This document shows, piece by piece, positions 1,330 through 5,782 of a stretch of 6,785 bases of DNA; the stretch's first letter is position 1, and every line of letters begins with the position of its first letter. The translations under genes and the position numbers were made by a program. The stretch is from an uncultured Erysipelotrichaceae bacterium. Its GTDB lineage: Bacteria > Bacillota_I > Bacilli_A > Erysipelotrichales > Coprobacillaceae. The DNA is taken from contig CAMFRJ010000065.1 of the NCBI GenBank assembly GCA_945981915.1, forward strand, positions 1 to 6,785, read 5' to 3'. The notes under the pieces are model-generated. The model worked only from the letters and a program-made list of their open reading frames with translations, did no database searches and was not told the DNA's origin.

Positions 1330-1973
1330 TGAATATCCAACTTAAGAATTATTCTATTGATATTTTTCATGAAGAACATCATGACAAGATGATCATCTGG
1401 TTAAGTGGGCAACATGAATTCGCTTTTCGAAACTATCTTGTCGAACAGGTCAATTGTTGTCTGGTTATTGTTAATATACAAAATTGGAATGAACAACTTT
1501 CACCTTGGCAAGCATCAGTTTTTAAAAGCAATGATTTTTCAGGAGGTGGGCAACAAACCTATGATTTTTTAATCAACGATTTGGTACCTTATTTAAAAAA
1601 TCATTTTCTTTTCCAAGAAGTATACGTAGCTGGTTATTCGCTAGCAGGGTTATTTGCACTTTATGTGCTTAGTTTAGATACTGACCTATCAGGAGCAATT
1701 TGTTGCAGTGGCTCTTTATGGTTTCCACATTTGATTGATTTTTTAAAAAATCATCAAGTAAGAGATAAAAAGATATATTTATCTTTAGGAAATAAAGAAC
1801 ATCAAACAAAACATCATGTGTTGTCAACAATTAAACAAAAAACAGGGCGAGTCTATCGATTCTATCAAAATAATAATATTTGTTTTTATCAGCTTCATCA
1901 GGGTAATCATTTTCAAGATGTACAAGAAAGATTGCTTGCTGGAATGAAGTGGATAGAGAGGGGGAGTCAATGA
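1329..1973 (+). CDS. Small alpha/beta-hydrolase-fold esterase-like protein
   Basis: A 214-residue cytoplasmic protein of the alpha/beta-hydrolase fold. The nucleophile elbow is GYSLAG with Ser104 at its centre. A C-terminal GNHF supplies the likely catalytic His194, and GNKE with Glu157 sits where the acid is usually found after strand 7. A WN..LSPW segment (residues 52-60) followed by a GGG turn is characteristic of a small family of uncharacterised Firmicute hydrolases distantly related to the enterochelin-esterase group (PF00756). No signal peptide or membrane segment is seen. The substrate is unknown. The reading frame is open back to 1269 inside the methyltransferase gene, but ATG 1329 forms a TGATG stop/start overlap with it, so translation is probably coupled. 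ATG 1317 is the other possible start. No good Shine-Dalgarno precedes either, which supports coupling. Confidence 0.75.
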   Translation: MNIQLKNYSIDIFHEEHHDKMIIWLSGQHEFAFRNYLVEQVNCCLVIVNIQNWNEQLSPWQASVFKSNDFSGGGQQTYDFLINDLVPYLKNHFLFQEVYVAGYSLAGLFALYVLSLDTDLSGAICCSGSLWFPHLIDFLKNHQVRDKKIYLSLGNKEHQTKHHVLSTIKQKTGRVYRFYQNNNICFYQLHQGNHFQDVQERLLAGMKWIERGSQ

Positions 1974-2782
1974 TCATGAAAATTGTAGCACTTATGGAAG
2001 ATACAAAAGGAAATGAACTTTGTATGTATGAACATGGATTATCTTTGTATATAGAAACTCAAAAACATCATCTTTTATTTGATACAGGAGCAAGTGAGAA
2101 AACCATCAAAAATGCACAACAACTTGGCATTGATCTTCGTCAAGTTGATACAGTCATCTTAAGCCATGGACATTACGATCATGCAGGAGGTATCATACCT
2201 TTTTCTAAAATCAATCCATCTGCTAAAATATGGATGCAAAAAAAAGCGAATAAAGATTATTATCATGGTCAAAAATATATTGGTATAGATAAACAGATCA
2301 TGAAATTACCACAGGTTCAAACAATTGAAGGAAATCAGATCATAGATGAAGAATTATTTTTGTTTACACATATCACGGGAAGACAATATTTCTCTGCTAG
2401 TAATTTAGAACTCACAGAAAAAATAGCAGGAAATGATGTTCTCGATAGTTTTGATCATGAACAATGTTTAGTGATCAATGAAGGACAAAAACACATTCTT
2501 TTATCCGGATGTGCACATAATGGTATCATGAATATCATAGAGACATATAAACAGTTATTTCATGGCTATCCTGATGTGGTCATCAGTGGTTTTCATCTCA
2601 GTCAAAAAACGACTTATACACATCAAGAAGTTAAAAATATACAAGATCTAGCTCATGATTTGAAGCATTTACCAACTCAATTTTATACAGGACATTGTAC
2701 AGGGCAACAAGCTTATTTGATTATGAAAGATATTATGAAAGATAAGCTTCACTATCTTCATTGTGGTGATATACTTTCATAA
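1970..2782 (+). CDS. Metallo-beta-lactamase-fold metal-dependent hydrolase (COG1237 type)
   Basis: A 270-residue MBL-fold protein. The metal-binding HxHxDH motif is intact in SHGHYDHAGG (H66, H68, D70, H71). Further ligand-type residues are in GCAHNG (H183), ISGFHL (H209) and TGHCTG (H242). This set, with LFDTGAS near residue 37, matches COG1237, whose archaeal members are annotated as 7,8-dihydropterin-6-methyl-4-(ribofuranosyl)aminobenzene-5'-phosphate synthases. In bacteria the substrate is generally unknown, and I do not assign that reaction here. The purine-rich ribosome binding site at 1957-1966 suits ATG 1970, which overlaps the esterase stop as ATGA; ATG 1976 is equally well spaced. 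It is the last gene of the first operon, and its TAA opens a terminator-like hairpin. COG1237 genes often lie near NifX/DUF134 genes in anaerobes, as here, which suggests a link with the next gene. Confidence 0.85.
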   Translation: MIMKIVALMEDTKGNELCMYEHGLSLYIETQKHHLLFDTGASEKTIKNAQQLGIDLRQVDTVILSHGHYDHAGGIIPFSKINPSAKIWMQKKANKDYYHGQKYIGIDKQIMKLPQVQTIEGNQIIDEELFLFTHITGRQYFSASNLELTEKIAGNDVLDSFDHEQCLVINEGQKHILLSGCAHNGIMNIIETYKQLFHGYPDVVISGFHLSQKTTYTHQEVKNIQDLAHDLKHLPTQFYTGHCTGQQAYLIMKDIMKDKLHYLHCGDILS

Positions 2783-2800
2783 GGCTTGTGCCTTTTCTTT
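2781..2800 (+). terminator. Weak rho-independent terminator of the first operon
   Basis: AAGGC (2781-2785) and GCCTT (2790-2794) form a five-base-pair stem with a four-base loop, followed by a T-rich run (TTCTTTT). The stem starts inside the stop codon of the MBL gene. The stem is short, so termination may be partial. Read-through RNA would then enter the large palindrome just downstream, which could itself fold into a long A-U-rich hairpin and help termination. Confidence 0.5.
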
Positions 2801-2841
2801 TATAGTTTTATTATTGACATATGTCAATAATAAAACTATAA
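2800..2841. repeat. Perfect 42-bp spacerless palindrome
   Basis: The two 21-base arms are exact reverse complements about the axis between 2820 and 2821, with no mismatch and no spacer. I checked every pair; symmetry stops at 2799/2842. It lies wholly between genes and encloses the -35 element and almost all of the -10 element of the promoter for the DUF134-NifX gene. A two-fold symmetric site over a promoter is the usual form of an operator for a dimeric repressor. Because transcription from that promoter starts downstream of it, the symmetry acts on DNA for this gene, and only read-through RNA from upstream would carry it as a hairpin. Confidence 0.95.
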
Positions 2842-2842
2842 T
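2814..2842 (+). promoter_or_regulatory. Fully consensus sigma-70 promoter for the DUF134-NifX operon
   Basis: TTGACA at 2814-2819 and TATAAT at 2837-2842 match consensus at all twelve positions with the optimal 17-base spacer. Such a strong promoter normally needs a repressor, and it is embedded in a perfect palindrome. By symmetry the minus strand carries TTGACA (2827-2822), 17 bases, then TATAAA (2804-2799), so the element could also fire backwards as an antisense promoter into the MBL gene. The plus-strand start would fall near 2849, giving a leader of only about 10 bases before ATG 2859. Confidence 0.8.
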
Positions 2843-2858
2843 CAAGATGGTGATGATC

Positions 2859-3536
2859 ATGAGACAAAATAAATCAAAAAAAATAGGAAAGATGCCTGAA
2901 TATAAATATTTTTATAGTGGAAAAGAAAACTGTTTAAAGATTATTTTATCTTTAGAGGAATATGAGACAATCAGATTAATTGATTATTTAGGGTATAATC
3001 AACAAAAATGTTCTGAAGAAATGGGAGTATCAAGAAGTACAATTGTTTCTTTGTATAATACAGCAAGAAAAAAATTGGCTCGTTTTTTAATTGAAGGGCA
3101 TTATATGAAAATAGAGGGAGGTCATTATCATTTACAACAAGAAAAAGGAGAGAGAAATATGAAAATTGCTGTGACATGTGTGAATGGACAAGTTTTTCAA
3201 CATTTTGGTCATTGTCCAAGTTTTTTAATATGTGATGTTGAAGATGGGAAAATAGTATCAACAAATTTAGTCGATTCTTCTACATCAGGATGTGGAGCAC
3301 TAGCAGGTTTTCTTGCTAGTCAAGGTGTTGATGTCGTTATTTGTGGAGGTATTGGAGCAGGTGCGAAAAATCATTTGGCTGCTTCAGGACTACAAGTTTT
3401 ACCAGGAGCAAGTGGAGATGCTTTAGGGCAAGTTGAAAGCTTTATTGCAGGAACATTAAATTATGATCCTGATTGTGAATGTGATCATCATGATCATGAT
3501 GATCATCATTGTCATGGGCCTCATCAATGCCACTAA
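2859..3536 (+). CDS. DUF134 (UPF0251) helix-turn-helix protein fused to a NifX-type metal-cluster-binding domain
   Basis: A 225-residue two-domain protein. Residues 1-95 are DUF134 (COG1342): LSLEEYETIRLIDY is followed by a sigma-region-4-like helix-turn-helix (about 46-75, with MGVSRSTIV), then ARKKLARFLIEG and an IEGGHY strand. Residues 101-200 are a NifX/NifB C-terminal-like domain (COG1433, Fe-Mo cofactor binding family) with HFGHC at 115-119, Cys145 in SGCGAL, and CGGIGAGA at 162-169. The tail from about 206 is rich in His, Asp and Cys and probably binds metal. The fusion architecture is known in Firmicutes. No nitrogenase gene is near, so a sensory or metal-handling role is more likely than nitrogen fixation. 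ATG 2859 is chosen because GGTGAT (2849-2854) pairs with the 16S tail; the frame is open upstream to 2763, through the promoter. A strong internal start lies at 3159. It probably regulates its own palindromic promoter (inference). Confidence 0.88.
   Translation: MRQNKSKKIGKMPEYKYFYSGKENCLKIILSLEEYETIRLIDYLGYNQQKCSEEMGVSRSTIVSLYNTARKKLARFLIEGHYMKIEGGHYHLQQEKGERNMKIAVTCVNGQVFQHFGHCPSFLICDVEDGKIVSTNLVDSSTSGCGALAGFLASQGVDVVICGGIGAGAKNHLAASGLQVLPGASGDALGQVESFIAGTLNYDPDCECDHHDHDDHHCHGPHQCH
3145..3161 (+). promoter_or_regulatory. Internal ribosome binding site and in-frame start for a free NifX domain
   Basis: AAGGAG at 3145-3150 is followed, after eight bases, by ATG 3159-3161, in frame with the DUF134-NifX gene. 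It is the best Shine-Dalgarno/start pair of that gene and better than the one at 2859. It falls exactly at the domain boundary: the new protein would begin MKIAVTCVNG, which is how stand-alone NifX-family proteins begin, and would be 125 residues long. In the fusion these bases encode a Lys/Glu/Gly/Arg linker. Either two proteins are made from one gene, or this is the relic of two formerly separate genes. Confidence 0.65.
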
Positions 3537-4996: not shown

Positions 4997-5030
4997 TAAA
5001 AAAACAGAAGAGTCTTCTGCTTTTTTATTA
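4995..5030 (+). terminator. Rho-independent terminator of the HAD gene
   Basis: CAGAAG (5005-5010) and CTTCTG (5014-5019) form a stem with a three-base loop, followed by C and six Ts. An A-run before the stem can pair with the T-run and lengthen the helix, so the structure may work in both directions and also stop transcripts coming from the minus-strand genes to the right. It starts at the TAA of the HAD gene. Confidence 0.85.
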
Positions 5031-5120
5031 TTTATTTTCAATAATTAAGATAATGATATCGACAAAGATGTTGATAAAATTTCAATACAATTTTAAAGCA
5101 CAAATGAGAGCACATCCTTC

Positions 5121-5580
5121 TCACATGTCTTTATGACAATGTTCATCAATTCTATTGATCTTTTTCATGTCATATAAAGTAAATCCTAGAAAAATAATCA
5201 GATCAATCATGACGACAATATAATAAAGAACTGGTGCATGAAAAAAAATAAAACAAGATAAGCAACTATAAGAATTGGCAATGCTGATAGACAAAATTGA
5301 CCAACACCAATAAACTCAGCTGTCGTATTTTTAAAAATAATATACAAAATCTCAAATAAAACAGCTGTTATGAAAAAAGCAATTGCTAAGATACCAGGTC
5401 CTACTAAAGATAAGAAAAAGGATAATGTTATACCATTGAAAACAGAATAAATGAAGAAATAAACTTTTGCTTGATAAAAATTGAGCTTTTCTACTTTTTA
5501 TGCAAAAACCAATTCAATAATTAAAAACAATGATAATAGATAAATCATCATCAGATAATAGTGTTGGAATGTGAAAGATT
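5121..5580 (-). pseudogene. Decayed Bax inhibitor-1/YccA-family membrane protein gene
   Basis: On the minus strand from about 5580 down to the TGA at 5123-5121, a hydrophobic protein can be followed through two lesions. The first part reads YYLMMIYLLSLFLIIELVFA, then a TAA stop at 5500-5498, then KVEKLNFYQAKVYFFIYSVF and NGITLSFFLSLVGPGILAIA. It continues through further membrane segments to LIVAYLVLFFF, where a run of eight T (plus-strand A8, 5241-5248) shifts the frame by one. The next frame resumes with HAPVLYYIVVMIDL and ends GFTLYDMKKINRIDEHCHKD-M. The YSVFNGITLS and YDxxKI elements are typical of BI-1/YccA-like multi-pass proteins. The N-terminal region with the first membrane helix is missing, so sequencing error alone does not explain the damage. 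Family assignment is by pattern recognition. Confidence 0.8.
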
Positions 5581-5592
5581 TCCAACACTATT
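5557..5592. repeat. 13-bp perfect inverted repeat with a 10-base loop
   Basis: AATAGTGTTGGAA (5557-5569) and TTCCAACACTATT (5580-5592) are exact reverse complements around ten bases. Neither side has a T-run, so it is not a typical terminator. It lies at the point where the recognisable BI-1-like reading frame (minus strand) begins and the unassigned frame upstream ends, so it may mark a rearrangement joint or be a small mobile-element remnant. Confidence 0.75.
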
Positions 5593-5782
5593 GAAGTCAT
5601 CGATGTAATGGATAAGGTTAGTCATTTCATCATTTTTGAAAAAACTGGTGATATGATAAATGTGAATTTATTGGATAATCACTTCACCATGACTTTCTTT
5701 TATTTCATTATTAAAAACGATATAAAATACAATGAAAATGAAAGACTTAAATATGTATTGTTTTTTATATCATAATGGTTCA
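5593..5782 (-). other. Unrecognised broken reading frame between the glycosyltransferase and the BI-1 relic
   Basis: One minus-strand frame is open here except for a single TAA. It gives a hydrophobic stretch (IFKSFIFIVFYIVF), then NNEIKESHGEVIIQ, the stop, then IHIYHITSFFKNDEMTNLIH and YIDDFNSVGNL, closing at a TGA near the inverted repeat. It looks like one membrane helix plus a polar segment, perhaps the ruin of a small membrane-anchored protein or a gene fragment. I do not recognise it. No ribosome binding site precedes it. The opposite strand also has an open frame (5608-5775, 55 codons) without a ribosome binding site. Either or both may be non-coding. Confidence 0.35.

Follow-up and report, generated by a model that had tools for sequence, protein, structure and literature searches.

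A conserved palindrome at DUF134 promoters, the predicted operator of a little-studied regulator family

The stretch of DNA analysed here, referred to as the window, is one entire contig (CAMFRJ010000065.1; 6,785 nucleotides, nt) of an uncultured Erysipelotrichaceae bacterium and belongs to a 1.49-Mb assembly rated 73% complete. On its forward strand, an MBL-fold hydrolase gene (1970..2782, assigned by Pfam, with relatives that adjoin DUF134 genes elsewhere) is followed by a terminator-like hairpin found by sequence scan (2781..2794), a perfect palindrome (2800..2841), and a gene for a 225-residue fusion of DUF134 and NifX-type domains (2859..3536, from the open reading frame [ORF] list and Pfam), which we predict to be a repressor. 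We chose the start at 2859; the ORF list gives an earlier in-frame GTG at 2763. The protein belongs to DUF134 (PF02001, UPF0251; 72.7 bits vs. a curated Pfam-A cut-off of 27; residues 2-91, window 2859..3131) and to Nitro_FeMo-Co (PF02579; 74.8 bits vs. 26.3; 3186..3446), the latter a NifX/ORP-type domain that, judging by relatives with solved structures, is predicted to sense a metal cluster. A His/Cys-rich tail, CECDHHDHDDHHCHGPHQCH (3474..3533), is predicted from its sequence to bind metal, and Cys208 occurs in at least 90% of 63 aligned sequences. Inside the DUF134 domain lies a helix-turn-helix (about 2955-3077) whose fold, by structural comparison, is like that of sigma region 4 on −35 DNA (1ku7, 2h27, and 6jhe); the match to the Sigma70 region 4 family itself (PF04545) fell below its Pfam-A cut-off (19.6 vs. 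24.1 bits). The proposed sigma-4-like working of DUF134 draws on this fold and on a modest alignment. The predicted model of the fusion has a pTM (predicted template modeling score) of 0.53, and the closest DUF134-NifX proteins in named genomes (best 80 of 568) are from [Clostridium] spiroforme and Massilimicrobiota.

The palindrome, TTATAGTTTTATTATTGACATATGTCAATAATAAAACTATAA, was identified by inverted-repeat listing and consists of two 21-nt arms (2800-2820 and 2821-2841) that are 100% complementary with a 0-nt spacer. An earlier note on this DNA had described the same arms with a right edge at 2842; that base is the final one of the −10 box and lies outside the symmetry. Given the base composition of the window, a 21-pair arm has a chance probability of ∼4e-12 per position and 3e-8 per window, and as single-stranded DNA the region 2790-2851 folds at −16.3 kcal/mol (z −8.1). 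The plus-strand promoter that the palindrome overlaps in all but its last base, TTGACA (2814..2819) and TATAAT (2837..2842) separated by 17 nt, was the sole 12/12 match in a promoter scan of the window that overall yielded matches at chance level (46 vs. 42.7 ± 7.1 in shuffled sequence). The minus-strand TTGACA-17-TATAAA, likewise reported before, is also present in the sequence (2827-2822 and 2804-2799), with the final TATAAA base outside the palindrome, and is absent from the scan list because it has no T at position six of the −10, which the scan required. Within 2837-2861, 6 nt separate the end of the −10 box from GGTGAT (2849..2854), a likely ribosome-binding sequence that is identical in the related loci L002, L003, L004, and L225. 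The mRNA would therefore start nearly at GGTGAT, and a start ∼7 nt past the −10 box would give a leader of ∼10 nt. A very short leader seems to be retained in the same four loci. A described RNA element was considered and rejected (0 Rfam matches at the gathering threshold), and a plasmid search using 2700-3000 gave no match.

Sequence comparison shows the core GACATATGTC to be conserved in the DUF134 family. In a first set, obtained by protein search and containing DUF134 in 23 of 60 relatives, CATATG-centred palindromes occur in many of the 23 upstream regions, among them TTATTGACATATGTCAATAA in L002, L003, and L005 (the predicted operator core of the window, 2811..2830) and TAATTGACATATGTCAATTA in L004. 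No such palindrome was seen near upstream of the DUF134 match in L006, L007, L009, L023, or L024; L007 has two sites farther upstream, ahead of a DUF5320 gene. In translated search, the DUF134 match in L019 (G030:C28) contains one in-frame TAA; the named record of that stretch, L104, gives a match over residues 4-225. The larger set comprises 80 loci from named genomes, the best 80 of 568 confirmed; it is not independent of the first, because L003/L050, L004/L052, L012/L074, L019/L104, and L225/L051 (the same sequence) repeat. In 69 of these 80 loci, [AG]ACATATG lies ≤250 base pairs (bp) upstream of the DUF134 gene. The remaining 11 include five variants (L068, L077, L111, L120, and L128), one site cut by N (L073), one contig end (L086), three sites ∼0.9 kb upstream (L088, L105, and L110), and one locus with none (L108).

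Dereplication removed 14 of 81 upstream regions (L086, which was too short, and 13 near-duplicates), leaving 67 loci, 59 of which carry the element at the gene's own promoter, as an autorepressor's operator would. When no motif was supplied, CATATGTC was the 8-mer common to most of the dereplicated loci (59/67); a first-order Markov null predicts the core words in 0.4 of 67 loci. There are 74 core sites in the 20,599 bases immediately upstream vs. 5 in the remaining 588,606 bases of these loci, and four of those five are the sites ∼0.9 kb upstream of DUF134 in L088, L105, and L110. The earlier proposal that the palindrome is the operator of the DUF134 protein, laid over a strong promoter, is thus supported by the recurrence of the symmetric element in homologous loci, and we place the probability that DUF134-NifX represses its own transcription at this operator at roughly 0.85. 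A mobile or scattered repeat was rejected and has a negligible probability: the 20-bp core is found once at 0 mismatches in the available part of the 73%-complete genome and hence is not scattered there, and its position relative to DUF134 is fixed across genera.

The core is placed in a few standard positions, with its left half on the −35 box, just past the −10 box, or at both ∼33 bp apart. Among 86 sites in the 67 loci, the left half is the −35 hexamer in 48 (≥5/6 of TTGACA, 16-18 nt ahead of a −10); a further 20 sites come after a −10, and the other 18 are unclassified. Two sites occur in 26 of the 67 loci, most commonly 33 bp apart (14 of 31 spacings are 32-35 bp), and in 13 loci they form a clean pair, a −35 site and a +1 site, on either side of the −10. 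The window has the −35 arrangement, with TTGACA at 2814..2819 as left half-site, an arrangement that recurs in other loci; the −10 box gives 5-6/6 matches in six of seven close relatives. The −35 sites carry TTGACA in the left half in 47 of 48 cases and in the right half in only seven, and the +1 sites carry it in the left half in 3/20 and in the right half in 6/20. From this asymmetry, the protein appears to need approximately TGACATATGTCA, with sigma adding the left-half TT. In L015, L016, L020, L021, and L022, which have a −10-like sequence upstream, the TT is gone and ACATATGT is retained. Positions over the −35 box or just past the −10 box normally block polymerase. It is therefore improbable that DUF134 acts as an activator or dual switch, for example through contact with sigma or polymerase at the −35 side: the sites lie at those positions, including the clean pairs around the −10. 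In favour of such a role, nine of the 67 loci have one site only, classified as −35 alone, and contact with RNA polymerase is conceivable for a sigma-4-like protein.

The length of the palindrome is a property of the window, and its core is shared. Arms are perfect over at least 10 bp in all seven relatives compared (L002, 13; L003, 15; L225, 16; L004, 13; L005, 10; L226, 12; L227, 10; vs. 21 in the window), never exceeding 16, and in the wider set the best arms are 3-8 in 55 of the 60 loci having a site, so that selection on the full 42 bp, as supposed in the earlier note, is not supported. Relative to the window, arm position 9 is altered on both sides in L004 and L225, and position 11 on both sides in L226. 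In a permutation of 42 sites with a left half other than TTGACA, in which kinship was ignored, symmetry exceeded expectation at positions 4 (32 vs. 22.6) and 6 (35 vs. 20.6; p ≤ 0.0005 each) and weakly at position 7 (p 0.03), with no excess at positions 5, 8, 9, 10, or 11. The covariation that the same note had offered as a check on its operator is consequently seen at some arm positions and not at others.

Most of the −10 box falls in positions 14-21 of the right arm, and only in the window does the left arm mirror it. The outer arm and the backward TATAAA (2799..2804, minus strand) are accordingly unique to the window vs. the seven relatives, in which the backward −10 gives 3-4/6 matches, as opposed to what a bidirectional promoter would require. 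Antisense control of the MBL gene by backward firing, once suggested for this element, is therefore unsupported, and we rejected it on the grounds that the backward TATAAA is not conserved. The terminator-like hairpin at 2781-2794 lies between the MBL gene and the palindrome. Templated correction of an imperfect palindrome, perhaps with the right arm as template for the left, would account for the eight extra pairs past position 13 (chance p ∼5e-5) without selection for backward transcription, and the outer portion of the 21-nt arms would then be a local extension; an assembly error in this single metagenome-style contig could also be its source. There is some chance, though we think it unlikely, that the outer arms are a cruciform DNA structure or a mutational by-product, with binding by the core only. 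Arms longer than 16 occur in the window and in none of the relatives compared, and templated copying would explain the extra pairs, but such an origin leaves the conserved core unexplained and is in any case compatible with the operator reading.

To delimit a predicted regulon, we used genomes of the class, in which DUF134 exceeds the Pfam cut-off in 53 of 296. The exact 13-mer TTGACATATGYCA is present in 34 of these 53 genomes vs. 21 of the 243 others, which include four with weak DUF134 matches. Of the 19 DUF134 genomes without it, seven were inspected, and five have a CATATG-centred variant; none was found in the other two, the shorter loci L146 and L156. Another of the 19, G027 (L010), has a one-base variant of the core. 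The regulon count was limited to perfect 14-mers because the 2-mismatch and 13-mer scans hold many chance matches; among the matches listed, several non-palindromic exact 13-mers fall inside genes, as does a 20-mer match, L042 (G010).

Perfect copies of the 14-mer, TTGACATATGTCAA, occur at 16 places in the 296 genomes, and 14 of them, the window's included, precede a DUF134 or DUF5320 gene, in most cases that of an operon with NifX and Fe-S-ATPase genes. A DUF134 gene or operon follows seven of these places (G000, G029, G109, G148, G154, G156, and G175), and a DUF5320 gene away from DUF134 follows the other seven (G148, G154, G166, G195, G237, G299, and G303), with NifX and ATPase genes following DUF5320 in all of the latter genomes except G299. 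In the L190 operon, which carries the motif, DUF5320 is encoded together with a NifX-type protein and a pair of ATPases that combine Fer4 motifs with a ParA/CbiA fold. The two exceptions among the 16 are L196 and L201. In a sample of the phylum (392 genomes, overlapping the first), 12 places were found, of which L232, L236 (the same place as L201), and L237 are not beside such genes. At ∼1502 in L237, a long palindrome with the same core, AAAAATTTGACATATGTCAAATTTTT, follows a gene that by eye resembles pyruvate kinase, and does not adjoin DUF134. Flavin-reductase-like genes (Pfam) in L024 (2515-3066) and L207 (2109-2639), close to a core site or DUF5320 gene, may also belong to the regulon. 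Relatives of the window's MBL gene directly follow DUF134-NifX on the same strand in L072, L091, L101, L111, L120, and L128, and a link between the MBL gene and DUF134 therefore exists; in the window the MBL gene is upstream, and in these six loci downstream.

A second palindrome bears on which protein reads the site. In the archaeal family of L116, DUF134 exceeds the cut-off in 11 of 15 genomes. Five loci with the helix SRRSFW (L261-L265) carry TTGCTCAATTGAGCAA at −43, with one mismatch in L261; they are close kin, two of them near-identical, and hence represent one or two events. The same palindrome lies ∼43 bp upstream of DUF134 in L272, where DUF5320 follows DUF134. Two DUF134 genes of the family with a bacterial-type helix carry the bacterial core GACATATGTC (L260 at −28 and L268 at −295), and no clear palindrome was found within 130 bp upstream in L258, L259, L266, or L267. 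A half-matching second palindrome is present near −12 in L264 and L265. L277, one mismatch from the archaeal palindrome, was taken as chance, lying within long reading frames in a genome without a DUF134 match.

A palindrome that differs with the recognition helix points to direct reading by DUF134. It also argues, together with the co-occurrence of the core and DUF134, against another regulator, e.g., of the Crp/Fnr type, that would bind the palindrome and have DUF134 as one of its targets. That alternative draws on the 6-2-6 geometry that the palindrome has in common with the PrfA box (TTAACA-N2-TGTTAA), on the perfect sites away from DUF134 and DUF5320 (L196, L201/L236, L232, and L237), and on the sites before DUF5320 in G195 and G299, where no DUF134 was detected; we regard it as very improbable.

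For the preferred reading, in which the palindrome is the operator of DUF134-NifX, we infer both repression and metal sensing. A DUF134 dimer would place its sigma-region-4-like helix-turn-helix motifs on two inverted half-sites, the left of which is the −35 box itself, so that sigma-A would be kept off; binding would then change when the fused NifX domain or the His/Cys tail gains or loses a metal or Fe-S cluster. A broader model, which we hold tentatively and at somewhat less than even odds, is that DUF134 proteins in general are sigma-4-like repressors, whose dimer reads two inverted −35 hexamers (TTGACA-TA-TGTCAA), holds sigma's box, and responds through a NifX/ORP sensor. In the Bacillota, an ORP-like Fe-S/metal-cluster pathway (DUF5320, NifX, twin ferredoxin-ATPases, and MBL) would have them as its master switch, with a re-specified version in methanogens.

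In autoregulated operators of the general kind, a palindrome overlaps the −35/−10 or +1 of the promoter that drives the regulator's gene, and a second operator is frequent. The DUF134 arrangement resembles these in location and in its frequent second site, and differs in that the −35 hexamer doubles as half-site and the domain predicted to bind has a sigma-region-4-like fold. It shares with sigma region 4 on −35 DNA the helix-turn-helix fold and the TTGACA half-site; unlike sigma factors, DUF134 proteins are small or NifX-fused, are sigma-like in the helix-turn-helix only, and would bind inverted half-sites as a dimer.

In keeping with the earlier note, we found no description of a DUF134 operator in the open-licence literature searched (DUF134, COG1342, UPF0251, and core words), and none of the listed papers containing GACATATGTC or TTGACATATG has DUF134 as its topic by title. 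Two papers name DUF134, both in passing: one gives a DUF134 and a DUF5320 protein with function stated as unknown (PMC7565180), and the other has DUF134 in one table row (PMC8347963). PMC7970244 and PMC10434189 concern other DUF numbers. Among the described pathways found, the closest, from the excerpts available, is the ORP system of Desulfovibrio. In Desulfovibrio vulgaris, the ORP operons (with the ferredoxin-motif proteins Orp3 and Orp4, Orp8, and MrpORP) are two divergent ones that use a sigma-54 promoter and a cognate regulator (PMC6345978, PMC3897727); Orp3 and Orp4 have two [4Fe-4S] motifs each, and Orp8 is related to Mo-Cu cluster proteins (PMC6345978). The L190 operon, with DUF5320, a NifX-type protein, and two Fer4 ATPases, resembles this system at the domain level only, and unlike the sigma-54 control of ORP, the predicted DUF134 control would act at sigma-A-type promoters.

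Elsewhere in the window, no ORF of ≥60 residues lies in the ∼780 bases between a HAD gene and a glycosyltransferase gene (5000-5780), a stretch that may be a decayed gene.

On the sequence evidence assembled here, the element is a real, conserved predicted operator of a hardly studied regulator family, and DUF134, an uncharacterised family of bacteria and archaea, gains with it a standard promoter arrangement and a predicted regulon. The core is found ahead of the family's genes in many gut bacteria, and through the element the regulator likely switches itself together with genes that have a predicted role in handling iron-sulfur clusters. If true, an ORP-like Fe-S pathway in gut anaerobes would thereby be tied to the sensing of metal clusters, and the element would provide a clean case of a repressor half-site shared with sigma's −35 box.
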